A DNA stretch of 64,000 nt from a virus, in IMG/VR virus record IMGVR_UViG_3300023181_000028, positions 16,012 through 80,011 of that record. One strand, given 5' to 3'. Positions 6,250 to 56,612 of the stretch are shown piece after piece. The position numbers were made by a program, and so were the translations under genes. The notes under the pieces are model-generated. The model was given only the letters and a program-made list of their open reading frames with translations, was not told the origin of the DNA and ran no database searches. Every line of letters begins with the position of its first letter. Positions within the stretch are counted from its first letter, which is position 1.

Positions 6250-6498
6250 ATGAGAAACAGGACTCCAAGAAAAACAAAAAAGCAATTAGGTAAAATGTTA
6301 ATAATTTACGATAGAGCAGTGCTGCCGATTAACTTATCAATGTTAGACGTTCTAAATAGATTTAAAGACCACAAAGTTTTAGAGTGGGACTCAAGTGCGG
6401 CTGGTAACGTTAGTTGCATGAATATAATGAGTAGGCCAGTAATAATGAATTATAGGAAAGGATTTCAAATAAAAAACAATTCCTTACAAAATCTGTAA
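6250..6498 (+). CDS. Hypothetical protein ending inside a palindromic operator
   Basis: An 82-residue basic protein of no recognised family. Its last codons, TTA CAA AAT CTG TAA (LQNL-stop), are exactly the palindrome TTACA-N5-TGTAA at 6484-6498. The unrelated gene at 41977-42411 also ends in LQNL-stop for the same reason. The phrase DSSAAGN also appears in the portal protein, but with different codons. Confidence 0.55.
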   Translation: MRNRTPRKTKKQLGKMLIIYDRAVLPINLSMLDVLNRFKDHKVLEWDSSAAGNVSCMNIMSRPVIMNYRKGFQIKNNSLQNL

Positions 6499-10801: not shown

Positions 10802-12280
10802 TTATTTTATTAACCAATTAGAATTATTTGAATATACAGTGATTGAGGCGTATAAAGTGCTAACTACTGCGGTTAATCCGCCGTCAATAGTTTGTGATGA
10901 CGTTGTATTTACTGTAGGCGTACCGCCGTTGTTTTTAAAAGTGTATTCATTAGTATTACCTACCGCAGTTGGTAGCGTCACAGTTAAATTGGCAGTGCAT
11001 TCATAATAATAATCAGTATTAGCAGCAGAGCCAGCGGCAGTATTTGTGGATATTGTATTAATAGACCTTGAGAATACAGCCACAGGCTGCCACGACCCCA
11101 ATCCTACACCATTTGTAGTAAGAACATATCCATTTGATTGAGTTCCATCTACAATCTTGATCTTACCGTTAAGCGTCAACACTTGATTTAAAGGATTAGC
11201 GTCGAATATACCATATAGCAATGATCCCGTTTTATCTCCGGCTGTATTAACCCTATCCTGATTGTTTAAGTAAAATACATTACTATCAGTAGTGGAATAT
11301 AATCCAGAATAAGCTCCTAAGAATACATTTCCAGAGCCAGTAGTGTTATTTCCACCTGAAAATATTCCTAACGCAGAGGAAAAGCTTCCCGTAGAATTTT
11401 GAGATAAACTAGCATTGCCCATTGCTGTATTTGAACTTCCTACGTTTTGAGCGTAAAGAGAATAAGCTCCAATGGCAGTATTAAAACTAGAATTTCCTCC
11501 CATTTCCATAGACCTAAGCCCAATAGCCACGTTTTCCGATCCTGTTATGTTAGAAGAGGCTAAAGCAGCCTTCCCAATAGATACGTTACCTGTAGCACTA
11601 GTCATTGAGAATCCAGAGCCATCCCCAATAGCCACATTATTACCGCCAGAAGTTAAACTACCTAATGCGATATACCCTAAAGCCATATTAGAGCTTCCTG
11701 TAGCGAATTTTAAGGCTCCACTACCCAAAGCAACATTCGCTACCCCGGTGGAATTAGTGATAAGAGCATCAAGCCCTATTGCCACATTTAATGTACTATT
11801 CCCCCCGCCGTTAACAATTAATTGTTGGCTATTGAAATTAATAGTTTGATTTGCTCCTGTATATGGAATATAACCTGCTAATGCTGCGGATGTAATATAC
11901 CCCGCCCCATTAGTTAGTTGATTGTTATTGCTTATTATAGTGGCTAAAGAGCCGTTTCCTAATATATATTGACTTGATGTTCCTTGCCAAGCGAATGCTA
12001 AGGTTCCAGAGGTTGTTACAGGGCCACCGGTTACCGCTAATGCTCCACTTATAGTAGCATTAATACTTGTTACAGTTCCGGTTCCGCCACCACCGCCTCC
12101 AAAATAGGGTAATGAAGACCACGGATTAACACCGTCACCAAATTTAAGTCCCTTAAGGTCTAATTCATATCCAGGTTCGCCTTGCGCTAATATTGGATTC
12201 TGAAATAGCCATTGAGCAGAGGTTTTCCTTTTAATCTGAATGACAACATCCTTGAAATTACCATCGTGACCTTTTCCCAT
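10802..12280 (-). CDS. Tail fibre with trimeric-adhesin head repeats
   Basis: A 492-residue protein. The N-terminus (IQIKRKT, then QGEPGYELD, then LKFGDGVNPW) matches the attachment part of many phage fibres. Residues about 165-330 are repeats of the type NVAIGxxAL and GSGNVxLG, the pattern of YadA/Hia-like trimeric adhesin heads (left-handed beta roll). The C-terminal 80 residues are a separate beta domain, perhaps receptor-binding. The poly-Gly stretch at 61-66 may be a hinge. It overlaps the upstream gene by one base. Confidence 0.75.
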   Translation of the reverse strand: MGKGHDGNFKDVVIQIKRKTSAQWLFQNPILAQGEPGYELDLKGLKFGDGVNPWSSLPYFGGGGGGTGTVTSINATISGALAVTGGPVTTSGTLAFAWQGTSSQYILGNGSLATIISNNNQLTNGAGYITSAALAGYIPYTGANQTINFNSQQLIVNGGGNSTLNVAIGLDALITNSTGVANVALGSGALKFATGSSNMALGYIALGSLTSGGNNVAIGDGSGFSMTSATGNVSIGKAALASSNITGSENVAIGLRSMEMGGNSSFNTAIGAYSLYAQNVGSSNTAMGNASLSQNSTGSFSSALGIFSGGNNTTGSGNVFLGAYSGLYSTTDSNVFYLNNQDRVNTAGDKTGSLLYGIFDANPLNQVLTLNGKIKIVDGTQSNGYVLTTNGVGLGSWQPVAVFSRSINTISTNTAAGSAANTDYYYECTANLTVTLPTAVGNTNEYTFKNNGGTPTVNTTSSQTIDGGLTAVVSTLYASITVYSNNSNWLIK

Positions 12281-12591: not shown

Positions 12592-13275
12592 TTAACATCC
12601 GCAACCACAGTCGCATAAAGATTTAGCCTTGTTTATAAATAAATTAGCTTTTACATAATCCTCATATTTCACTGCGGATTCAGCAATAGAAAGATAGGAT
12701 TGTGATAAGATAGCCTTATTAGCTTCTTTACTATCGCATTCGCAATCAATCTCAACCTTATTGAATATCTCATCCATACAGCATTGAGTTGCAAGTTTTT
12801 GCAATATCATATCCGTAGTACTTAAATCGAACGCGGTGGGAGTTCCACTCACTGAGGTGCTACCCGTAATGTTATAAATAACACCATAAGCTCCGTCAAC
12901 TAGCGAAGGAAGATTATAGACCTGAGAAGACCCATACGTATAGCTATTTAACAACATAAAGCCATTTAGAGGGAATGTTGTGGAGTTTAGCTGAGATAGT
13001 ATAGTTTGAGCGCCAAGCCCGTTAAAATTGATTGTAGCGGCTGTAATAGTGCCATTAAGAATAGTAAAGGTATATACCGCAGAAACTTGTAATTGAGTGT
13101 AATTAACAGTTAAAACAAGACCTGTAACATCGTTTATTGCCACCCCATTAGGTGATCCATAACCAAAAGGCGCTGAAACAACATTGTAAGTCGGAGTGAT
13201 ATCAGTAATGTATAAAGTATCGAAAGCATTATTAAGTGCTAAGTCAACTTCTAAGTCTAATTGTGTTACTGGCAT
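12592..13275 (-). CDS. Cys-tailed paralogue A (tail-associated)
   Basis: A 227-residue protein paralogous to the next gene upstream (13355-14059). Both have a beta-rich N-terminal domain with the shared phrase GYGxPNGVAxNDVT (about 38-52), a Cys-containing middle (VEIDCECDSKEAN here), a helical hairpin, and a Cys-rich C-terminus ending CDCGCGC. The CxCGCGC end could bind metal or form disulphides. Function unknown; the location within the fibre genes suggests a virion or fibre-assembly part. Confidence 0.65.
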   Translation of the reverse strand: MPVTQLDLEVDLALNNAFDTLYITDITPTYNVVSAPFGYGSPNGVAINDVTGLVLTVNYTQLQVSAVYTFTILNGTITAATINFNGLGAQTILSQLNSTTFPLNGFMLLNSYTYGSSQVYNLPSLVDGAYGVIYNITGSTSVSGTPTAFDLSTTDMILQKLATQCCMDEIFNKVEIDCECDSKEANKAILSQSYLSIAESAVKYEDYVKANLFINKAKSLCDCGCGC

Positions 13276-13354: not shown

Positions 13355-14059
13355 TCAGCACCCACAATTACACGCGCATATAGATTTAGATTTTTGTAAT
13401 AATTGGTTGTATAATGTGTAATCCTCTTTCTCCTCTGCGTATTTAGCTATATCCAAATAAGCCTTAGACCTCATAGTTTCTTTTAATTTCTTGTCATTAC
13501 ACCCGCAATCAATATCCATGTCATAAAAAGACTTATCTATACATGAACTAGATTCACAGTCTCTTATACAGGTATCGTTGACAGTGTAATCAAATATAGT
13601 TGGAGTGCCATTATCAGAAGCAGAGCCTCTAATCCTATAAGCCACATTATATTGACCGTCAGTTAAAACCGGAAGTGTAATAGTTGTTACAGGAAAAGAT
13701 GAGATATAAGGCCCAACTGTAATAAATGGATTAGAAGATGTTGGCGGGAATGTCAAACTAGGAAGATAAGAAGCGAGGGTAGGCACATTTATAGCACCTT
13801 GCCCGGCAAAATCAACTGCCATAGCCCCTATAACCCCATTAGTTATTAAAAAAGAGAAAACGGCAGTTATCCCCAAATTAACATAAGTGATGGTTATAAA
13901 CATCATAGTTACATCGTTAACCGCAACTCCATTGGGAACCCCGTAACCTAAAGGATTAGACACAGAATTGTAAAGTCCGGTTTCATCAGTTACTATTAAA
14001 TGCTTACAATCGTCACTAACGACAATCTTAGTTTTGAGGTTTATTTGAGTTAAGGCCAT
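13355..14059 (-). CDS. Cys-tailed paralogue B (tail-associated)
   Basis: A 234-residue protein that aligns along its length with the product of 12592-13275, sharing GYGVPNGVAVNDVT, DCGCNDKKL, the helical hairpin and a CACNCGC terminus. It also carries an extra Cys cluster (DTCIRDCESSSC). The tandem arrangement shows an old duplication, and divergence is high outside the motifs. Function unknown. Confidence 0.65.
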   Translation of the reverse strand: MALTQINLKTKIVVSDDCKHLIVTDETGLYNSVSNPLGYGVPNGVAVNDVTMMFITITYVNLGITAVFSFLITNGVIGAMAVDFAGQGAINVPTLASYLPSLTFPPTSSNPFITVGPYISSFPVTTITLPVLTDGQYNVAYRIRGSASDNGTPTIFDYTVNDTCIRDCESSSCIDKSFYDMDIDCGCNDKKLKETMRSKAYLDIAKYAEEKEDYTLYNQLLQKSKSICACNCGC

Positions 14060-14082: not shown

Positions 14083-17000
14083 TTAATCTTCCTCGATAAA
14101 TTCTATTCCGGCTTTAATAGCTTTTGAGTTAGGCAACGCACTAATAATATCTTTACTTCCCTTTTCAACATCTAATTTCATTACATCTTCCATTACATTT
14201 ACGAACTTACTTACAGTGGCTTGCGCGGCAACCGGAGATTTAACAAAGAATTTAATATTATCAATGTCAAAGATGAAGAGTAAGTTAGAAAGGGCTTGGT
14301 CAATAGCATCACCCTTTTTTCTCTTATTTTTATCGTCGTCTCCACCAAGCCTCAAAGCCATAAACGCAGCAACCACCATTAAGCCCTTTAGATTAGACAT
14401 AGCGTCTTTATTCTTTGTGAATCCCTCTATTCCGTCCTTTTTAATAGCCTCTTTAAGATCAGTGAAGCCTTGCCCTAAGAACGCTCTATAAGTACCTCTA
14501 TGAGTCACACCATTAGCGTCTATGTATTCTTCGCCCATTCTCTGCTTAAATGCATCTGGAACCCATATTTTGAATTGCCCAACCAATTTACCGAACTCTC
14601 CGGCTTGGTAATTTCTTTTATCGGCCTCTCCATATTTACCTTGAATATCCGACACTGTTTTAATATTGGCAATCGCGCGGCTTTTAATCCCCTTCTCGTC
14701 AGCACCTTCTTTTAACTTAACCTGTCCAGTACTTTCGTTGTACTCAATACTATTAAAATCCTTATCACTCATTAATCCTAAGAATGCTGAACCTTGTATG
14801 TAATACTCACCACCCCTTGTTAATCCATGCGCTAACATTTCAAACAATTTACCTGCGTATAATTTAGGATTAGAATCAAAATCTAAACTAACTGCATTGT
14901 ATTTACGGATAATAGCAGCAGCCTTTTTAGGATTCTGTATTAACCGCTTGGTTCCTTTGTATTGCGCCTCAGCACTTTCTTTTCTTATAGTATTATAAAT
15001 ACCCATTGCTATATTAAACCCACCTGCGCGATATGCAAACGCCATCACATTCAATGAAGTTAACTTGCGGATTATTCTGAAAAACGTGTCTAATTCTGGC
15101 CCTAACGCTCCAACTTTTTCTTTCTTGAAAATATGAAGATCAGTCCATTGTTTTACCCATTCCGCAACATTCTCTTTCTTTTCATGCTCCTTAAATCCAA
15201 CTTGATTTAAATACTCTATAGATTGAATGTAAGGCAATAGTTTGCCGATATGTTCTGTATGTGTGTAGTCATCAATGAATGAATGCGCCGCCTTGTAGAA
15301 GTCCTTAGAATAACCCCTGGACTTATCTCTTGGTTTGTTGAATTTACTTTTTAATCTTCCATCTGTAGATAAATTGTACTCAGCTCCACCAGTTAAGGCC
15401 AAAGGATTTTCTTTCTCATCTACATTAGTTCCGGTTTTAAGTTGCCTTCTCGCGGCCAATTGATATTTAACCATCTGCAACAAAGCCTTCATCTTATCCA
15501 ATGCCCCCTTATTACCCTGTTTGATTAAATCTCTCTCAATCTCCCCATAAGACATTACTTTATTACCGTACTTAATCCTTACATTCTGGATGTTATGACC
15601 ATTACCCAAATAAGCACTGAACGCCTGTAAGATGCCTTCCTCTCTAAACGATTCCGCCACTCCCTTATCCACCTTTAACACTTCATTGTTAAGTTGATCT
15701 TCATCCATGCCCTCAAATTGCTTATTTCTAAGATCGTTGAGACCCAACATAAACTTTAAGAATTTAGTTTGCGCGGGAGTGAAGCTCTTAGCCTTAGCTT
15801 CCTCTAAAGTGTAATAACGCCCGTCAGGATGCTCTACAAATTCAAAGTATTTAACTGAACCTGACATTACAAATTCCTTAGCCTTGTCAGTGATGCCTAG
15901 AGATTTATTTTTCTCCTTTATAACTTCCTTGCCGATATTCTCTAATTCTCCTTTGAGTTTATCGCGCTCTTGTTGCATGTCGAAATAAGTCTCGTCAAAT
16001 TGTTTGCTGAAAGATTGTAATTCCGGCTGGTTTTGGGTCATATGACCTAAGTTCTTCATAAGAACATCTTTGGCGGATAAGTCAGTTTTATTGGCTTGCT
16101 CTTCTACATATCCCTTTAACCCTTCCAGTTCCGTTTTACGTTTAACGAACATCCGGTAGCCTATTTGCTGCTTTAATTGATTTAGTTTAGGTTCTTTCGC
16201 GGCATCTGCAAAATCCCCACTCACCATCAGATTATAAGCCTCTAATAACCGCTCATCCGTCATATCTTCTAACCTACCTTCACTTAATATAGAAGACAGC
16301 ATATCCACATCCTCTTTGTATGCAAACCACTTAGAAGCATCTCTTTTGGCCTCCTTGTCGATGTTAGCCTTAAACACCTTTAATTTCTCTTTTTGCTCCT
16401 CAGTATATTTTTCATCCGCCAAAGCGTCTTTAATAAACTGCAAGTCTTTACGAATCTGCTCTAAAGATCTTCCTAATACATTCTCCCTGTAAGATTCCAA
16501 TGACATAGTTAATTTCTTAGCTAGGTCTTTCGCGGACATTTCATCCAATGTTTTAAAAGGCTTTTTCTTAGATAATTGCTCTTGTTTACTTTCTCCAACC
16601 TTATTCCTTGTATTAACGCCTCCTATTATCTGTTTAGCTAAGCTCTTAGCAACGTTCTTGTCTATTCCGAGTAATTGCTTAAGTCGGTTAAATATGTAGC
16701 TTAAAACGGCTTCAAATTTATTCCTGACTGACTCTTTATCAAAGATCAATGAACCTTCCATTCCTATCGCTTCTGCCAACACTTCCTTACCCAACATCTC
16801 TTCATTCAGCTCAGGGTATCTTTCCTTAACGTCATCCCATAGCGGAGTATCTTTAAGTTGCTTAATCCCCACTTGAATAACTTTATTGTTATATCCAATA
16901 GCATCAATCATAATGTGACCAGCTTCGTGAATAGGCGTGTCAATACCAGCATAATCAGGATTGATTTCGATAGTGTTGCCTATTAATCTTCCGGCGAACT

Positions 17001-20827: not shown

Positions 20828-21174
20828 AAGATATATTTATACCATTCGAACTAGCTTTATGGGCAAGAGATTTAGGATTTGACGAGCCTTGCGTTGGCAA
20901 ATACTCAGGAGGATCTAAAGAACTCAAAGTAGGCGTGATTAATCAGCAAATGGCTACATGGTTATTGGCCCCAACATATCAACAAATACTAGATTGGCTA
21001 AGAGAACAACATAGTATATTTATTAGTCATTCCCATGCTTCGTGGGGAGAAGATTGGTTTTATTCAGTTGGTAACGGAAACGTAAAATTACTTGTCACAG
21101 ACATTAAAGATTATTACGAAGCATTTGATTCATGTTTAATTAAAGTATTTAAAATAATAGACAAAAATGACTAA
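20824..21174 (+). CDS. Hypothetical phage protein (island A)
   Basis: A 116-residue protein with ALWARDLGFDEPC and APTYQQILDWLREQHSI. This combination is frequent in Bacteroidota prophages, where the second motif is thought to be a helical end of a small alpha/beta protein. Function unknown. Coupled by 4-bp overlap upstream and 8-bp overlap downstream. Confidence 0.7.
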   Translation: MKDIFIPFELALWARDLGFDEPCVGKYSGGSKELKVGVINQQMATWLLAPTYQQILDWLREQHSIFISHSHASWGEDWFYSVGNGNVKLLVTDIKDYYEAFDSCLIKVFKIIDKND

Positions 21175-21883
21175 AGAGAAAATAGAATCAGTTTGCCGCG
21201 CAGTTGAAATATATATTCAATCTAGCGCCTATTACAAAGAATGTATTATCGGAGGAAACTTTTCAGGCAGGTTTAATGAGTTTTTAACTCAAGAAATTTG
21301 TAATCAAATAGTTAGGCAACATGAAAAGTTATTAAGCCAACTAAAAGCATCAGAATACGAAAATGGACATTTGTCTGGCAAAGTTTCTGATTTAGTAAGG
21401 TACATATCTGACCTTGATGAAGACTTTAAAAAAGAAGACGCGCGGAATAACGAACTCACTGATAAGGTGGCGGAATTAGAGTTAGGTATAGGCATATTGG
21501 AAGATAATTTAGATGCAGCTCAGGAGAAGATTTCGGAATATGAAGAAGCGATAGGGTTAAAATCTAAGCATATTCAACAATATCACGATTCTTTGTTAAA
21601 TAAAGATATCGAAATTCGTAAATGGCGAGAATTAGTTGAAAATATGAAATCAAACCACGCTAAAGAAACTGATAGTATTAGAGGGGATCATTGCGATTAT
21701 TTAAAAAAGGTATTGGGAGAGATGCAAATCATTAAGGGTTACAATCAGAATTTAATAAATGAATTAAGGCGTTGCAGAACACATATGCTTGAAGCTGGAT
21801 TTCATTCTCAGTCAGCGCCTATAACCGCGTTAGATCAAACAATACGTCAAAACACAATTGAATTAGGAGAACTTAGAGATTAA
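21167..21883 (+). CDS. Coiled-coil protein (island A)
   Basis: A 238-residue protein that is largely coiled coil from about 55 to 190 (heptad-like segments such as NNELTDKVAELELGIGILE). Ends carry no known domain. It closes accessory island A, and its stop lies 15 bp from the convergent stop of 21899-23305 with no clear hairpin between. Confidence 0.65.
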   Translation: MTKEKIESVCRAVEIYIQSSAYYKECIIGGNFSGRFNEFLTQEICNQIVRQHEKLLSQLKASEYENGHLSGKVSDLVRYISDLDEDFKKEDARNNELTDKVAELELGIGILEDNLDAAQEKISEYEEAIGLKSKHIQQYHDSLLNKDIEIRKWRELVENMKSNHAKETDSIRGDHCDYLKKVLGEMQIIKGYNQNLINELRRCRTHMLEAGFHSQSAPITALDQTIRQNTIELGELRD

Positions 21884-44102: not shown

Positions 44103-45596
44103 TTAAGATTTATAGATAATACCGCACTCTTGAGTGTTGTAAATAACCATTAAATCTTCTTTTAACATTGCGTATTTCATTACGTCTTCCTCTGAAATCA
44201 TTGTTTCATTGGCACCGGTCATACCGTTAAACTTAGCTGTTACACTTGCACGGTTTAATCCGTTTGCTTCTTTAGCAAGGATTTCCATGTTCATGTTAGA
44301 ACCAGAACCTAAATTCATAATGAATAAGGTAGAGCTTAACAATAGTTTTCCGTCAGCACCTCTCTCAGGGAACGCAGCTTCGTCATCAAACAACGGGTGT
44401 TTAACAAGGATCATTGTGTTACCATTGATGTTGAATTTACCGAAGTTGTATCCGGCATCCACGATTGCACCACCAGCTTGTCCATTTTGAGTTACATTAG
44501 TAACGATTTGGATGTTTTGATTACCAAGTAAGTTAATCAGTTTCTTTTGACCATTTGCATAGCCATCAGTACCGGTAATACCTACCCATGTGAATCCTGA
44601 CACCTTATCGCCTTTTTTCTCAAGTTGACCCATCATGTCAGCGATATCGTCTTCTGTCCACTCTCCGTTTAAGCCTGAACCGTATGCTACGTTACCGCCA
44701 GCAACTTGCTCTTCCCAGCCGTCACCTTGAACGATCTCAAGACCTGTTTCAGTATCAATTAAGTTTGAACTTGCACGGATAGTACCATCAGCATTTTTCA
44801 TACTTGATACACCAAACAACTTGTTACGCTCGTCTTCCATTACGAAAGTAGCTTGCGCTTGCGCTAATTCTTGATACATCCAACCTTTAGAGAAAGCTCC
44901 ACCTTCACCTTCGTAGTTATACCAAAGTACATTTGAAGCAGCTCCACCGGTGATACCAACAGTTTTACGTTGAATAGTCATGTGGTTAACAAACTTACTA
45001 GGCGCAGCCGAACGACCGTAACCACGAAGTGATTTCTCTCCATATGAAGTGTAAACTCCAAAGCAGGTTTTAGTTCCTTGTTGTGGCGCTACGTGAGTTG
45101 CATAGCTAAACAAATCACCAGATGGAGATTGGAAGCTATATAAGTAACCCGCAGAAGGGGAACCTGTAGGGAAAGCCATTACACGAGCGATAAAACGACC
45201 TGTGTAGAAAGCAACGTTCATTCCCGGTACTAAGTGCTTATCGCGCATTAACAACTGGAAAGAACCGTCAGGCTGAGTAGCACCAACTTGTTTAATGATC
45301 TCAGATGCTTTCTCAATACGACCCATAACGTCAAATTGATAAGCGTTTGCTCCGATACCTTTACCTTTAGTTGTTACTTGAGGAATTTTAGTACGCTCAG
45401 GGTTAACGATACCATAAGGTGTTACCGCGCCGGATACTAAGATTGTAGTTAAAGCTCTACGATTCGCATACTCTAACATGTTTCGGATTGCAGGCTTATT
45501 GGCCTGATTTTTCATAAGGTCATTGTTAGTAACACAAGTGTCTTCCGAAAATACACCTTGATTAATACTAATTCTACCTGCGTGTGATGATGGCAT
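44103..45596 (-). CDS. Major capsid protein
   Basis: A 497-residue protein in the position of the major capsid protein, directly downstream of an acidic scaffold-like gene and portal. The start HAGRISINQGVFSEDTCVTN resembles crAss-like capsid proteins, which have the HK97 fold. The high Gly/Ala/Asn content, even composition and terminator after the gene fit strong expression. Residues 201-245 (KFVNHMTIQRKT, SNVLWYNYEG) have a homologous copy in a small protein at 54003-54284. The two genes share 20 identical nucleotides there (44971-44990 and 54127-54146). Confidence 0.75.
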   Translation of the reverse strand: MPSSHAGRISINQGVFSEDTCVTNNDLMKNQANKPAIRNMLEYANRRALTTILVSGAVTPYGIVNPERTKIPQVTTKGKGIGANAYQFDVMGRIEKASEIIKQVGATQPDGSFQLLMRDKHLVPGMNVAFYTGRFIARVMAFPTGSPSAGYLYSFQSPSGDLFSYATHVAPQQGTKTCFGVYTSYGEKSLRGYGRSAAPSKFVNHMTIQRKTVGITGGAASNVLWYNYEGEGGAFSKGWMYQELAQAQATFVMEDERNKLFGVSSMKNADGTIRASSNLIDTETGLEIVQGDGWEEQVAGGNVAYGSGLNGEWTEDDIADMMGQLEKKGDKVSGFTWVGITGTDGYANGQKKLINLLGNQNIQIVTNVTQNGQAGGAIVDAGYNFGKFNINGNTMILVKHPLFDDEAAFPERGADGKLLLSSTLFIMNLGSGSNMNMEILAKEANGLNRASVTAKFNGMTGANETMISEEDVMKYAMLKEDLMVIYNTQECGIIYKS

Positions 45597-46872: not shown

Positions 46873-49098
46873 CTAAACCAAATCAGTGTTATTTATAATG
46901 TCATTTTCAGTCTGTAAAGACGTTAAATGCATATCGTTATTTGCCTTGTTATTGTCCACTTGCATCTGAACCTGACCCTTTAATACAATCTCTTCTTTCG
47001 CAGAATTTTGAATATCCTCACGATTTTCATTGGCAATCTGAATCTGAGTTTGAAGGTTAGCTTCGTTCATTTGAGCCTGCGCTTGGTTATTAGCCTCGTT
47101 TTGTTGCTGAATAACTTTTTGCATCTCAACCCAGCTGTTCTCTAATTTATTCTTCATCTCCGCCACAGTGGTGGATAAAAGAACATTTAAAGCATCCATT
47201 GGTCTGATATCCTTAGCATTTAAAGAAAACTCCATCATTCTCTTAATGTCCTGCTTGATTTCCATATAATGTCCGCCATCTTCCACGTGAACACCATAAT
47301 CCCTATATCCAATATCTTTAGTTAATTGCAAGTATTTTAACTTACTAGCCCCTAAAATATGTTCTCCCTTCTCTAATTTGTAAAACGCCCAAGATATAGC
47401 AGAACTATCTACAATCCCCTTCATAACCCTTGTAACAAAGCCATTCATCCCATAAAACAGGGATTCGGTGATTATCCGCGAATTAGCAATGTCATTCTGA
47501 GCATTAGTAGCCGTTGAACTCGCGGCAGTATTACCCTCTCTACCCTCATTAATACCTGTGATCTGACTCAAAGTATTAATAATATCCTGCTTCATAGCAA
47601 GTAAAAACTGAAACGATTGACTTAAACCTAAATCAAGTTCCTTAAACATATTCTGAGGATCTAAGTTCCTTTGACTTGTATTTCCGGCAGCACTCGAATC
47701 ATATTCATAAAATTGATCGTTATGAATATTGTACATCACTTCCTTAACAGTTTTATTAATTGGCTGTCCCGCGCGATCATACGTAAACACCTTACCTTTT
47801 GCCCTTGCAAGCTCTTTTAATATTTGATACATACATATATCAAACATATTATCAAAGTTCTCTATAATCTCCTGTAATGACACTGTAATGCCATTAACCC
47901 TACCGTGTATATAACCATAATAAGAACTACTCATTATATGAGCGGGCTTGTCAACACTTCTCTTCTGGAAGTAAGTCCTACGCATATTTACATCCACACA
48001 TCCACCAATTCTCGTGGCTTCATACTCATCTTCCTTATACTTAGTTATAATCTCGTACTCTCCACTTTCAACCTTCTTATCGTGATACTCCCTATTAGAT
48101 TCATATTTTTCCGGAATCATAGGTAAATCAATGTAATCCACATCGTCCTCCGAATCAAACATGGCCTGATCCGCTGATTTCTTAACCCTCTTTGTATATT
48201 CCGGTGTAACAGATTTCCATTCAATGTGCAATACATCACACACTAACTCTCCGCCAACCATTCTCATATATCCCCTACCTATTCCATCCGGCCCCGCGTA
48301 AGAACCCCAATTATCTCTGGCGTTCTCCAACATTAACCTTTGGTCTTTAGTGAGGTTATATCTCAATAAAATCTGGTGTAAAGGCATCACCCTTCTACAT
48401 CCTAATATAGGACTCTCTTCTAAATAATCATCTCCGTCAACCGCCTCAAAAATAGCATTCCTTACATCTATATTATGCAACTTCACCTCTCCGGTTTCGT
48501 CGCGTTCCACTTGCATAAAACAATGGCTATGCAACTCTAAGTTCTTAAAAGCATCTCCAAACTTCTTTTTAGCATCTAAATCCAATACTTGGTTATTAGC
48601 AATGATTTGCATAATATCCTCACATTTATCTTTAGGAGCCATCTTATCCCATAAAGGATCTTCTAAACTATCAGGAATAGGAGCGCCTTCCATTACATCT
48701 ACACCACCCTTATTCTTTAAATCCATCAATTCGGGCTTGGCTATCATAGCCCCAATCATAAAGTCTAATTGCTGCATTTTTGCAGACATAGCTTCTGAAT
48801 TAATAGTGGTGACAGTGGAAGATAACGGACGTTTTAAAAACTCCCCATGCAATAGGTCAATCTTAGTTCTACCTAAGCGATATGCAATGTATTTAGAACG
48901 GTTTTGTTTACCATAAGTCTTCTCTAACCACGCAAGACTTCCCGGCTGTTTAACGCCGTTGTAAGAGTCTAATAAACGGGTCATTTTACCGCTATAGCTG
49001 TTATTGTTTATTAGAAGCTGCTCGGCAAAATCCAAATGGGATTTTAACCAGGCTTCATTCTTGTCTTTAAGCGGTAAAAGTTGACTAGGAAACTGCAT
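46873..49098 (-). CDS. Portal protein
   Basis: A 741-residue protein placed between TerL and scaffold/MCP. It has a helical N-terminus (FAEQLLINNNSYSGKM), a central beta/alpha region with paired acidic residues, the hallmark INEGREGNTAASSTATNAQ (a helical segment after a Gly-rich loop typical of portals) and a Gln/Asn/Glu-rich C-terminal helix. The length agrees with crAss-like portals. It would form the dodecameric DNA entry ring at one capsid vertex. Confidence 0.75.
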   Translation of the reverse strand: MQFPSQLLPLKDKNEAWLKSHLDFAEQLLINNNSYSGKMTRLLDSYNGVKQPGSLAWLEKTYGKQNRSKYIAYRLGRTKIDLLHGEFLKRPLSSTVTTINSEAMSAKMQQLDFMIGAMIAKPELMDLKNKGGVDVMEGAPIPDSLEDPLWDKMAPKDKCEDIMQIIANNQVLDLDAKKKFGDAFKNLELHSHCFMQVERDETGEVKLHNIDVRNAIFEAVDGDDYLEESPILGCRRVMPLHQILLRYNLTKDQRLMLENARDNWGSYAGPDGIGRGYMRMVGGELVCDVLHIEWKSVTPEYTKRVKKSADQAMFDSEDDVDYIDLPMIPEKYESNREYHDKKVESGEYEIITKYKEDEYEATRIGGCVDVNMRRTYFQKRSVDKPAHIMSSSYYGYIHGRVNGITVSLQEIIENFDNMFDICMYQILKELARAKGKVFTYDRAGQPINKTVKEVMYNIHNDQFYEYDSSAAGNTSQRNLDPQNMFKELDLGLSQSFQFLLAMKQDIINTLSQITGINEGREGNTAASSTATNAQNDIANSRIITESLFYGMNGFVTRVMKGIVDSSAISWAFYKLEKGEHILGASKLKYLQLTKDIGYRDYGVHVEDGGHYMEIKQDIKRMMEFSLNAKDIRPMDALNVLLSTTVAEMKNKLENSWVEMQKVIQQQNEANNQAQAQMNEANLQTQIQIANENREDIQNSAKEEIVLKGQVQMQVDNNKANNDMHLTSLQTENDIINNTDLV

Positions 49099-52143: not shown

Positions 52144-52931
52144 TAAAACGCCTCCAATTCCGGTAATTGCACCGGCTCTAATTCGTTAATAATCTTTTCT
52201 TTGAAGTAATCTAGTAAATCTTTAATATCCCTTTTTAAATAGGTCATAGGTATCACCTTGTTTGTATATTGTATTACCTTGCCCGTAACATCCTTTTTAG
52301 GGATAATCATATCTACAAACATCCTTTCACATTTTCTGCCGGTAAGCAACTCAAAATGATAAGCGTAATACGATAATTGTATATTGATTTTGGAATACTT
52401 CGTGTTTGGCAAATGGTCTAATGGATAATTAAGCCATGCCTGACCTTTAGACTCATAACTCATACCCTTATCAAAACATTTAAAGTCGCTGATATGAAAC
52501 TTACTATCCTTTCTATTGCTACATAACGCCAACTTATCTAAACTTCCAGCAGTTCTCGTAATAGTATTATACACTACCAATTGCTCATGACAGCTATGAT
52601 AGTCTTTATACTTACCTAAAACGTGTTCAACGATACCCTTTAAATCCCTATCAGATTCCAATATTTGACCCGTCTGAGCGTATAACTCAAGCGCGGCATC
52701 TATACGCGTACCTTCATCAGTTGCATTGCTCCATTGGCCTAAAACAGCCTCCTTTGATCTACCTTCTGACTTTGCCACCTGCCCGGCTATAAAATTAGCA
52801 TCGAATTTAGGTACGAGGAAGTTATAAAGTCGGCTGAACGACATATATTCCTTTCCTTCGTTATCGAAGTACTTGTGAACTTTCTCGTCCAGCCGAACTT
52901 TTTGGTCATATAAGTTATGAATCCTTGACAT
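52143..52931 (-). CDS. PD-(D/E)XK nuclease (RecB/Cas4-like)
   Basis: A 262-residue nuclease of the PD-(D/E)XK superfamily, acting on phage DNA in recombination or on host DNA. Motifs: HEQLVVYN (Glu116), GSLDKL (Asp132), HISDFK (Asp149-x-Lys151) and QLSYYAYHFEL (Gln185-x-x-x-Tyr189), the order seen in RecB-type exonuclease domains. crAss-like phages encode comparable nucleases. It overlaps the acidic-tailed protein upstream by one base. Substrate preference cannot be read from the sequence. Confidence 0.75.
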   Translation of the reverse strand: MSRIHNLYDQKVRLDEKVHKYFDNEGKEYMSFSRLYNFLVPKFDANFIAGQVAKSEGRSKEAVLGQWSNATDEGTRIDAALELYAQTGQILESDRDLKGIVEHVLGKYKDYHSCHEQLVVYNTITRTAGSLDKLALCSNRKDSKFHISDFKCFDKGMSYESKGQAWLNYPLDHLPNTKYSKINIQLSYYAYHFELLTGRKCERMFVDMIIPKKDVTGKVIQYTNKVIPMTYLKRDIKDLLDYFKEKIINELEPVQLPELEAF

Positions 52932-53671
52932 TAAAACGCTTCGTCTTCGTCTGTTATTACTGGAACTTCTGCTTTAACCTCTTTGGATTTCTTAGGCTTT
53001 TTAGTTTCAGATAGCGTTACTTCGCCACCATCCAACTCAAACTCCTCTTCAACTACAATAGAAAGATCTTCCGCCAATTCTGAATTGTGAATAATGATAC
53101 TACCGAACTTGTTTTCCAAAAGGCTTGTAGCGAAATCGCGTTGCTCATCAAGAGTTAATCCGTTAAATGTGTCCATTGTCATAGACTTCTCTTTTCCGGC
53201 CTCAATCCATCTTTGAGTTAATTCTTCGTCACTCACTTTTTTCTCACCCTCCAAATACAATTTGGTTTCAGTTAGGATATCCTTAGCGATAGCCACAACA
53301 TCTTCATAACCCTCATAATTGTCGATTTCCTCCACTTTAGGAGTGTTTAGCTTAATGTTCTTGTTCCCGAACACTTCTCTTTCTCCGTGCAATACAAAGC
53401 CCTCTGAATCAAATTCCAACCCTACAACCTGAGTCTCATAAAGCATGAATTTCATCTGATCTTCATCCTTTTGATTAGACATTTGACAAATATTCAATAA
53501 GTGAATACGAAGGTCTTTAAATAAATCTTCTAAGTCTTTATGGATTGGGTCTTTCGGCGACTTCACCATATCCGTGTTAGAAATTCTCTTTCCTTTTGTT
53601 TCAGGGAGGATGTAAACGACTTTTGCGCCATTAAACCCGTTGTTTTTTAGGGTGATCTTTTTTATATTCAT
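52931..53671 (-). CDS. Hypothetical protein with SSB-like acidic tail
   Basis: A 246-residue protein next to the nuclease. The N-terminal 140 residues look beta-rich (MNIKKITLKNNGFNGAKV). A Lys/Glu/Ser linker follows, and the C-terminus is acidic and ends VITDEDEAF, similar in plan to SSB tails, which recruit partners by an acidic end with a terminal Phe. It could be a recombination or single-strand-binding partner of the nuclease. This is inference from the tail and neighbour. Confidence 0.5.
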   Translation of the reverse strand: MNIKKITLKNNGFNGAKVVYILPETKGKRISNTDMVKSPKDPIHKDLEDLFKDLRIHLLNICQMSNQKDEDQMKFMLYETQVVGLEFDSEGFVLHGEREVFGNKNIKLNTPKVEEIDNYEGYEDVVAIAKDILTETKLYLEGEKKVSDEELTQRWIEAGKEKSMTMDTFNGLTLDEQRDFATSLLENKFGSIIIHNSELAEDLSIVVEEEFELDGGEVTLSETKKPKKSKEVKAEVPVITDEDEAF

Positions 53672-54006
53672 TTTTCGTTATTTACTTGTTTAATTCCAGT
53701 TGGTTGGTATAATCCGGTTTTAGTCATTCTAATAAATTCTTCCTCTATAACAGATTTGAATTTATCAATACCCTCTTCTCCCGTAATAATTATACATTTT
53801 TTCTCTTCCGCCTCAACTTGCCTAAACCAATCTCCCTCATCATCGTCTATTTCATCTGGATGATTAGCGTAATAATTTTTCATTCTTTCATTATCCATAC
53901 GCCATTTATCCAATTCTTCACCCTCCATGATAATACTATCATCAAATGGACTTGCCATGTAATTAAATGTCCGGCGTTGTTGATATTCATCGTTACTAGC
54001 ACTCAT
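53668..54006 (-). CDS. Hypothetical acidic protein, 112 aa
   Basis: An acidic protein (DEIDDDEGDWFRQVEAEEKK) of no recognised family. It is tightly coupled: 4-bp overlaps with both neighbours. Confidence 0.55.
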   Translation of the reverse strand: MSASNDEYQQRRTFNYMASPFDDSIIMEGEELDKWRMDNERMKNYYANHPDEIDDDEGDWFRQVEAEEKKCIIITGEEGIDKFKSVIEEEFIRMTKTGLYQPTGIKQVNNEK

Positions 54007-54284
54007 GCCTTATTATTTAATTTATTATAAAAATCTTCGTTTATGAAGCCTTCCGACTTACCATCCTCAAAATTATACCACAAAACTTGACTTTCCCCAG
54101 ACCCACTTATTGTAAATGTTTTTCTCTGAATAGTCATGTGGTTAACCCATTTGTTTTTCGGCGGAGAAGGTAAACAGGTTTTTAATTCATCTTCTTTTGA
54201 AATTAAAAACTCCGGCACATTAGATTTAATCGCCGCGCCAACAAATAATACTCCTAAAGTTTTTAAGAAGCCTCCCCTATTCAT
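54003..54284 (-). CDS. Protein with a copy of a capsid segment
   Basis: A 93-residue protein. Residues 1-20 (NRGGFLKTLGVLFVGAAIK) form a Tat-like or signal-like hydrophobic leader with only one of the two expected Arg. Residues 45-89 (KWVNHMTIQRKT, ESQVLWYNFED) are homologous to residues 201-245 of the major capsid protein, about half identical, including 20 identical nucleotides (54127-54146 with 44971-44990). It lies in the replication cluster, far from the head genes, with 4-bp overlaps on both sides. Possible roles: capsid binding, interference or superinfection exclusion. None is shown. Confidence 0.7.
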   Translation of the reverse strand: MNRGGFLKTLGVLFVGAAIKSNVPEFLISKEDELKTCLPSPPKNKWVNHMTIQRKTFTISGSGESQVLWYNFEDGKSEGFINEDFYNKLNNKA

Positions 54285-54547
54285 ACCTCAATATTTAATA
54301 TTTGATTATCTGTGACAAACTTAACCTTACTCCTGTAATCCTTAAATATCAATATGTAAGGCATTACTGTATCATTAGCAGTGATGAACATATAAACATG
54401 AAAAGGTCTATCCTCCGCCATATCATATCCCATACTCTCCGCGATTAAACAAGGATCTCTCTCCGTCATTGAATAAAGATCGTTAATAGCCATTTCAGTT
54501 GACCACCAGTCTATAATACCGTGTTTAGTGAACTCCTCTTTTAGCAT
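54281..54547 (-). CDS. Hypothetical protein, 88 aa
   Basis: Residues 1-50 are helical and acidic, and the C-terminal half is beta-like (HVYMFITANDTVMPYILIF). Start: ATG at 54547 overlaps the stop of the small membrane ORF upstream (ATGCTAA) and is preferred over an in-frame ATG at 54610 that would lie inside that ORF. No family is recognised. Confidence 0.6.
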   Translation of the reverse strand: MLKEEFTKHGIIDWWSTEMAINDLYSMTERDPCLIAESMGYDMAEDRPFHVYMFITANDTVMPYILIFKDYRSKVKFVTDNQILNIEV

Positions 54548-54639
54548 ATAGACTTTATTACCCAAATTAACACTCCAACTATTAATATCACCCAAGCGAA
54601 TGTATCCCAATCGGGATTCTCATTGTAACTGTAATCCAT
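54541..54639 (-). CDS. Tiny single-pass membrane protein, 32 aa
   Basis: The reading frame from ATG at 54639 encodes MDYSYNENPDWDTFAWVILI and then a hydrophobic stretch ending in WVIKSIC. It is a short acidic head with one membrane helix. The stop overlaps the next start by ATGCTAA, and it fills a gap left by neighbouring genes. Similar tiny membrane proteins occur in phage replication and lysis regions. Confidence 0.55.
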   Translation of the reverse strand: MDYSYNENPDWDTFAWVILIVGVLIWVIKSIC

Positions 54640-54652
54640 CAAATTTACTCCT

Positions 54653-55093
54653 TTATTTATTAATATTCAAATTAATTGTATTATTATGCAATTCCTTGTA
54701 GTCGTTAATATAACTCTCAACTGTCTCTTTATAACCCTTGCTATCCCGCATAGTCTGTTTTACCTTCTTACAATAGAATACCATAGATGAATGATCTCTT
54801 CCGCCGTAAAACTGCCCTATCTCTCCCAATGTGAATTGATACCCATAGATTGCCCGTGTCACATACACGCATATCTCCCTCACCCTTGCGTTATCCTGAT
54901 GCCTGGCCTTATCCCTTACATTCTCTAATCTAGCCCTCATCCGGTTACAAACATATTCTCCCACTGCCATAATGCATTCAGAAGCATCGGCTGTTAATTC
55001 CTGTTGAACCTTAGGTACTAAGTAATATTCTTCCTTGATCCGCGCCACTACATTCTCTGTAATAGCTTTTAATTGAACTTCTGTTAGTTTCAT
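54653..55093 (-). CDS. Stand-alone DnaA domain IV-like DNA-binding protein
   Basis: A 146-residue protein whose residues 70-112 match the C-terminal DNA-binding domain of DnaA: VREICVYVTRAIYG (helix with the basic loop), FTLGEIGQFYGGRDHSS (helix-turn-helix and the GGRDH signature) and MVFYCKKV. In DnaA the Arg and GRDHT residues contact the DnaA box. The AAA+ ATPase domain is absent. It could mark an origin for host or phage helicase loading or compete with host DnaA. It is encoded next to a J-domain protein and a PIF1-like helicase. Confidence 0.8.
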   Translation of the reverse strand: MKLTEVQLKAITENVVARIKEEYYLVPKVQQELTADASECIMAVGEYVCNRMRARLENVRDKARHQDNARVREICVYVTRAIYGYQFTLGEIGQFYGGRDHSSMVFYCKKVKQTMRDSKGYKETVESYINDYKELHNNTINLNINK

Positions 55094-55683
55094 GCTTGTC
55101 TAAAATTAAATCCGTGAAACTCATAACTCTGTTGCGGCGGAGCTTCATCAAACTTATAATGAACACTCATCAAACATTCCCCGCATTCCCTCAAGAATTT
55201 AATATTATCCTTAATCCCCTCTATCTCCCTCTCAATATTAACTACATTGTTCTTTACAACCTGCAACACAACTCCCGATTCCCCACTTAGCCTTTTAACG
55301 ACCTTATTAAGCTTATTTAATTGTTTCTGACACTCCAGTACCTTATTCTCATTATCGTCCACCATAAGGCCATTATATTCCCTAAACTCCTGTATTAAGT
55401 CCTTATAATCCACATCATTCTGCGCGATAATATTCATAAAGATCTGCTGAACATATTGACTAAACTTAAGATCAAAGCTTTCCATCTCCTCATCTCCCGT
55501 CCGGTCATATTTATCCCTTCTGACCTTATCCCGTAAAACCATATACGCGCGGTTAACCTCAATCATGTCCTCATGACTACCACCCTTATCTTCATGCTTT
55601 TCTTTAGCCATATCTTTATAAGCTTGTTTTATTTCCTGTTGCGTGGCGTTCTTATCCACACCTAGTATTTCGTATAATGTCAT
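55090..55683 (-). CDS. J-domain protein with HED in place of HPD
   Basis: A 197-residue protein. Residues 1-65 are a J domain (LYEILGVDKNATQQEIKQAY, then EVNRAYMVLRDKVRRDKYD). The HPD motif that stimulates DnaK ATPase reads His-Glu-Asp (residues 30-32). The remaining 130 residues are helical and lack Gly/Phe and zinc-finger parts, so it is not a full DnaJ. It overlaps the DnaA-like gene by 4 bp. It may recruit or block DnaK in replication-complex remodelling. Start: ATG at 55683, 2 bp after the previous stop. Confidence 0.75.
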   Translation of the reverse strand: MTLYEILGVDKNATQQEIKQAYKDMAKEKHEDKGGSHEDMIEVNRAYMVLRDKVRRDKYDRTGDEEMESFDLKFSQYVQQIFMNIIAQNDVDYKDLIQEFREYNGLMVDDNENKVLECQKQLNKLNKVVKRLSGESGVVLQVVKNNVVNIEREIEGIKDNIKFLRECGECLMSVHYKFDEAPPQQSYEFHGFNFRQA

Positions 55684-55685
55684 AA

Positions 55686-56612
55686 TTACAGCATCCAATA
55701 CTGTTCCCACAGCGCGCGGTTAACTTTAAGAGATGTTTCAGCGTCTTTAGTCTCGTGGAAATACAAATGATATTCATCCTTGTTTCTTTCGCAGAAAATT
55801 AATTCGTCCACCTGTCTGCGAACAACCCCAACATAATTTTTAGATAAAGGCTTTCCTTCATTTGCTTTAGCGCAAATATGACTCAACTGTGCAAATGCAA
55901 GGGCGGATAAAGCTTGTTTCTCGGTGCGGTATTGATTTTTAAACCACGGATGAGCTATAGTATTACAAGCTTTTTTAACGTTAAGTTTTGATAAAGCTCC
56001 GTTGGTAAGAAGCTCAATGTAATGCCCCGGCTCAAAACTCTCCTCCCATGTAAACCCTTCCTTACCATCTAATTCTTCTTTAGAGAAGTTATCGAGTAGG
56101 AATTTAAGAATTGACGTGTTAATCAGGCTGTTTGAAGTGACAAGAACGCCAACGCCCGCACTTTCAACTTTCGGCTGACAATTATTCCACATCTCCCGCG
56201 CTGTTTCAAGACTCATAGTGATCGGACGTGAATCTGATTTATTTGGTGAAGACGTAGCGTTAAAATAACCATGACCGTTACCGCATCTCTTTCTAAACCT
56301 ATCCACCCTCTCCGACTGACTCATCTCTTTATCCAAAACAGCATCCGCAATGTAATCACTTCCTAGTTTTTGAGCCACAAAGTCAACTCCCGAAAGCTCT
56401 ATAAACTTGTCGATGGTTAATGCTTTTCCGAATGAAAATTTTAAGCAAGCAAGATCTTTTTCGTTATCTATTCCATAATAACGACCAACATCAAACCCCT
56501 CATATTCTATATGACCCTCTTTATCATTCAAATACCTAATCACAGTATCTTTAAATCTCTGACTTCCGTCATTGCGAACCGACCAGCTCTCTGGTAATCT
56601 GTTTTCTTTCAT
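55686..56612 (-). CDS. Hypothetical replication-cluster protein, 308 aa
   Basis: A 308-residue protein (MKENRLPESWSVRNDGSQRF at the N-terminus). It contains short Cys/His segments (NGHGYFNATSSPN) and helical parts, and no classical nuclease, helicase or polymerase motif. The LPESW start is common in phage hypothetical proteins. Start: ATG at 56612 is preferred; the in-frame ATG at 56675 would overlap the upstream gene. It lies between the helicase and the J-domain gene. Confidence 0.6.
   Translation of the reverse strand: MKENRLPESWSVRNDGSQRFKDTVIRYLNDKEGHIEYEGFDVGRYYGIDNEKDLACLKFSFGKALTIDKFIELSGVDFVAQKLGSDYIADAVLDKEMSQSERVDRFRKRCGNGHGYFNATSSPNKSDSRPITMSLETAREMWNNCQPKVESAGVGVLVTSNSLINTSILKFLLDNFSKEELDGKEGFTWEESFEPGHYIELLTNGALSKLNVKKACNTIAHPWFKNQYRTEKQALSALAFAQLSHICAKANEGKPLSKNYVGVVRRQVDELIFCERNKDEYHLYFHETKDAETSLKVNRALWEQYWML

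Follow-up and report, generated by a model that had tools for sequence, protein, structure and literature searches.

A small protein of a crAss-like phage joins a Tat-like leader to a segment homologous to the phage's own major capsid protein

In a crAss-like phage, a gene for a 93-aa protein (54003..54284, minus strand) combines a Tat-like hydrophobic leader with a segment homologous to the major capsid protein (MCP) of the same genome. The gene lies in the window, i.e., the whole analysed stretch of 64,000 nucleotides (positions 16,012 to 80,011 of IMG/VR record IMGVR_UViG_3300023181_000028). Small proteins of the same composition were found in two related phages, and other small proteins of this phage group carry pieces of the portal or of another MCP region. 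We tentatively lean towards a reading, possible rather than probable, of the small gene as a dispensable, lineage-restricted mimic of the E-loop arm of its own MCP, which would compete for a partner, likeliest a host capsid sensor.

Homology to the capsid protein and genomic context

Blastp aligned residues 31–73 of the small protein with MCP residues 187–229 (53% over 43 aa, E 4e-13), tblastn within the genome aligned residues 40–89 with MCP residues 196–244 (50% identity), and hhalign against a profile of 16 MCPs gave E 8.7e-14 across residues 19–81. Within the 80-kb record the two proteins matched each other and nothing else. The MCP-derived segment, supported by these comparisons and by a codon comparison, comprises residues 45–89 (KWVNHMTIQRKTFTISGSGESQVLWYNFEDG...; 54018..54152, minus strand) and corresponds to MCP residues 201–245 (44862..44996, minus strand). 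The reading frame and its capsid-like part, first noticed in an initial annotation of the sequence, are therefore real, and derivation of the segment from the MCP was supported. Two related phages encode this chimera too, and their leaders are closer to the Tat type.

The genome is that of a crAss-like phage, because crAss-like MCP, portal, and terminase were all matched. The MCP (gene at 44103..45596, minus strand) passed PF23898 with 69.6 bits against a cut-off of 27 and was matched to the phicrAss001 MCP by Foldseek (E 6e-12); the portal (46873..49098, minus strand) matched gp20 (E 3e-12), and the relatives of TerL were mostly crAss phages. In phicrAss001, the I-domain (79–180) is inserted in the E-loop (PMC10172136). 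Since hhalign placed the copied segment directly after the I-domain of gp32 (E 1e-4, a weak alignment), while in the model of the window MCP (poor, pLDDT 59) a beta-hairpin at 222–241 was followed by a long spine-like helix at 242–261, we concluded that the copied piece is the returning E-loop arm, between the I-domain and the spine helix. Trp225, invariant among 16 MCPs, was retained in it. Overall, MCP-conserved columns were not clearly favoured over variable ones (8/12 vs. 8/18 kept). A structure model of the small protein itself was too poor for use (pLDDT 49).

The initial annotation had also pointed to 20 nucleotides shared by the two genes, and these are present (54127..54146, minus strand; counterpart 44971–44990). 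Amino acid identity explains them: 20 of 29 residues were identical between residues 45–73 and the MCP, while only 7 of 18 synonymous codons agreed, against 7.35 expected from the codon use of this genome, a single figure from 18 codons and hence a modest basis. As this agreement is at chance level, the shared run is a by-product of protein identity and is ruled out as proof of recent copying. The synonymous sites are saturated; the copy is therefore old and its likeness resides in the protein, the sequence of which was kept, whereas decay would have erased the likeness in codons and protein alike. The same pattern would result if the segment had come from a related phage with different codon choices.

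The small gene is coupled to both neighbours by ATGA overlaps, as had been proposed. The upstream neighbour (54281..54610, minus strand; 109 aa) was weakly related to positions 1053–1529 of contig L003. Further upstream are DnaJ- and DnaA-C-domain proteins, so that the earlier term "replication cluster" is fair; the two adjoin each other in a phage operon at 54653–55710 (minus strand). A weak Pfam match (E 0.045) made the downstream neighbour (53668..54006, minus strand; 112 aa) a candidate for a second MCP fragment, which was unsupported on further comparison; 47 aa of it also weakly resembled a 238-aa protein at 21167–21880 (plus strand; E 9e-5), which composition may explain. Below follow a conserved 246-aa protein (52931..53671, minus strand), which served as a syntenic anchor below this variable slot, a 262-aa gene, and then terminase and portal. 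Elsewhere in the window, adjacent paralogues at 12595–13275 and 13358–14059 (minus strand) shared 41% identity across 234 aa.

The leader (residues 1–19, MNRGGFLKTLGVLFVGAAI; 54228..54284, minus strand) is hydrophobic and resembles the RRGFxKxLG-type leader of the Tat signal sequence (TIGR01409/PF10518), as the initial annotation had it. It begins MNRGGFLK, however, with RG in place of the RR of the twin-arginine motif of Tat-exported proteins; it had no family match and no evident cleavage site. Both homologues described below have the canonical RR, and only that of contig L128 passed the NCBIfam Tat cut-off (17.7 vs. 16.7). The leaders of the window and L030 proteins were alike beyond shuffled sequence; the Tat consensus accounts for part of this likeness. 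Export, suggested earlier for the window protein, is thus doubtful, and the copy lacking the second arginine may remain in the cytosol.

Homologues and other small proteins with structural pieces

With the window protein as sole query, scanning of viral contigs gave no match; pattern scans and profile searching among short ORFs were required. The profile search yielded an 82-aa homologue in contig L030 (MERRGFLRSLGFLVGS...SPPKYMNHMTIQRRTISVTGRAKTNVIWYE, E 5.5e-10), and a scan for NHMTIQR yielded one of 91 aa in contig L128 (MNRRGFIKRLGVLGVA...EKFINHMTIQRRTYPITG), which aligned to MCPs by hhalign (E 4e-8) and to the L030 protein by blastp (E 7e-13). Both contigs have, in addition, an MCP gene of their own that includes the segment. 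The group of leader-plus-E-loop proteins thus has three members, under a definition derived from these same three: a short ORF with an RxGF[LI][KR]xLG leader and an NHMTIQR[KR]T segment. For none of the three was a homologue detected among isolated-phage records. When the segments were ranked by similarity to 29 MCPs, the phage's own MCP came first for L030 and, for the window, second by score and first by identity. Grouping of the window and L030 segments as a single clade was neither supported nor rejected (p-AU 0.49 on 30 columns). In the L030 copy, a raw count gave 8 of 15 synonymous codons identical to the MCP gene.

In contigs L003, L012, and L019, whose MCPs have 62–64% identity to that of the window, the small gene was not beside the gene for the 246-aa protein (about 1 to 1.8 kb visible in each); this count excludes the closest relative, L011, which is too short to show the slot. 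Near the same conserved gene, contig L082 encodes a small protein (10976–11284, minus strand) whose leader is Tat-like but whose C-terminus is unrelated; it was rejected as a related case, having no similarity to phage structural proteins. Homing-endonuclease-like genes adjoin the small gene in L030 (10621–11514, minus strand; GIY-YIG) and in L128 (3356–4228, plus strand; a weak NUMOD3 match).

Comparison of the genome with itself revealed a second small protein of this kind. An 82-aa protein (6250..6498, plus strand; YDRAVLPIN...WDSSAAGN) matched residues 437–498 of the portal of the same genome (E 1e-7; hhalign E 6.7e-7), YDRA..PIN and DSSAAGN being common to both; the homologous stretch, about residues 434–480, lies at 47659..47799 (minus strand). 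A 73-aa protein of L030 (8326–8547, minus strand) matched the corresponding part of that phage's own portal (49%), and weaker portal-segment proteins occurred in L080 (6086–6316, minus strand), L003 (3546–3770, plus strand), and L086 (119–529, plus strand). Among 42 portals, the own portal ranked 1 and 2 in similarity for L030 and the window, and 26, 7, and 17 for L003, L080, and L086, so that portal pieces track the own portal closely only in the first two. In the portal copies, 4/18 and 9/22 synonymous codons were identical, in line with the figure for the window's MCP segment. A membrane-type protein of L110 (7956–8348, minus strand) matched the MCP C-terminus with its first 30 residues (hhalign E 6.7e-7).

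When 6118 short ORFs were compared with profiles of eight families, MCP obtained four matches and portal five at E <= 0.05; TerL, scaffold, four other control families, and all reversed ORFs obtained none at that threshold. The sample was biased, its loci having been fetched around MCP; the eight families were picked after the first fragment pairs had been seen; and two of the portal matches and the L110 match were weak (E 0.004–0.013). Related small proteins of L083 (1295–1588, plus strand) and L091 (9727–10056, plus strand) gave borderline matches to MCP 287–332, and their TGKxGA stretch resembles MCP 336–355 in swapped order; both were missed at E 0.05 in the controlled search and were not accepted as MCP-fragment proteins. 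In phicrAss001 (about 2.7 kb of which lay outside coverage) and FpV4, no fragment pairs were found.

Possible function of the small proteins

The patchy presence, the variable slot, and the different pieces carried by different phages point to a role that is accessory and not a core part of assembly. The mimic would compete with the MCP for a partner that reads the surface of the E-loop arm. The likeliest such partner would be a host immune sensor of newly made capsid or portal protein, which the mimic would divert as a decoy in the course of infection. At the membrane, the leader might then anchor the bound partner or dispose of it, which is the weakest step. We lean to a decoy because MCP and portal share partners, namely each other in assembly and host sensors, and because capsid sensing has precedents. 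It is supported by the MCP homology and E-loop placement of the segment, by selection acting on the protein, by recurrence in L030 and L128, by absence from close relatives, by the fact that only MCP and portal were sampled among the eight profiles, with no reversed matches, and by the retention of the invariant E-loop tryptophan. Avs4 senses the portal. CapRel is an established capsid sensor, as is Lit, which acts via the Gol peptide of the T4 MCP (PMC9712102), and in Thoeris mutation of an E-loop tryptophan prevents binding and abolishes sensing (PMC11312562).

Several points count against a decoy. As Gol shows by activating Lit, a capsid peptide on its own can switch a sensor on instead of blocking it. 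With a Tat or N-in leader, the mimic would end up across the membrane from a cytosolic sensor. The columns conserved in MCPs are kept not clearly better than the variable ones, and the fold model is poor. None of the phages has been cultured, and we know of no sensor or binding partner in their hosts. It is more doubtful whether there is a whole class of small proteins made from own capsid or portal segments, swapped among related crAss-like phages, and acting as decoys against structural-protein sensors; to our knowledge, no class of small phage proteins made from such pieces has been recognised.

A somewhat less likely partner than a host sensor is the MCP itself. The E-loop mimic would then fill the E-loop acceptor site of the MCP, and the portal mimics the portal contacts, thereby delaying or shaping assembly of the phage's own capsid, perhaps near the membrane. 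The E-loop/P-loop contact holds hexamers together (PMC11312562), and the closeness of the segments to the own MCPs in the ranking above is consistent with such a role. However, close relatives have the same MCP without the small gene, which sits in a variable slot adjacent to genes of DNA metabolism, and the mimicked pieces differ between phages.

It is unlikely that the gene simply arose by an old recombination between a leader ORF and a piece of the MCP, giving a product whose purpose is unrelated to the capsid or absent. The variable slot, the patchy distribution, and the Tat-leader protein with an unrelated C-terminus in the same region of L082 agree with such a birth, but the protein was preserved while synonymous sites became saturated, the NHMTIQR core is common to three phages, and MCP and portal alone were reused repeatedly.

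Interference with other phages, put forward as an idea by the initial annotation, appears improbable. Poisoning of the assembly of co-infecting relatives with similar MCPs would fit the accessory distribution and the confinement of the motif to close MCP relatives; yet self-poisoning would be expected, since the copy resembles its own MCP roughly as much as any other. Blocking of incoming phage is unlikely for the same reason and because the capsids of tailed phages remain outside the cell. Occurrence in three small proteins could also indicate an independent small domain common to MCPs and other proteins, but this is highly improbable: the small protein had no match in Pfam, PHROGs, NCBIfam, or PDB, genome-collection scans found no free-standing copies of the segment, and the remaining homologous in-frame matches from degenerate scans of the viral collection proved to be MCPs, either complete or truncated by the contig or stored stretch. 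A DNA-level artefact, such as a copied target site linked to homing endonucleases like those adjoining the gene in L030 and L128, is equally hard to credit, since similarity was retained in protein and not in codons and the window gene has no adjacent endonuclease.

Significance and comparison with known systems

Some bacterial immune systems are known to sense capsid proteins, and phages escape through mutating them. If phages instead make spare copies of the sensed pieces, this would be an unrecognised form of counter-defence, and the copied segments would reveal the capsid and portal surfaces watched by hosts. If the partner is instead the own MCP, the small proteins would be natural peptides that regulate how capsids assemble. 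In both cases, a directly testable question arises in an abundant phage order.

Fv1-like restriction factors likewise turn captured capsid sequence against capsid functions; they are host genes with large Gag portions, whereas here a phage gene carries a short segment. T4 gp24 and other MCP paralogues are also MCP-derived second genes but encode full-length virion subunits. With the crAss-like MCP (PF23898, phicrAss001 gp32) the small protein has in common only a stretch of about 45 residues, the E-loop arm that follows the I-domain, and it gave no Pfam match; it is a single segment behind an N-terminal leader, without the HK97 fold. The Gol peptide of T4 gp23, which activates Lit, is similar in being a short MCP stretch recognised on its own (PMC9712102), but Gol lies within the MCP itself, has no separate gene, and activates defence.
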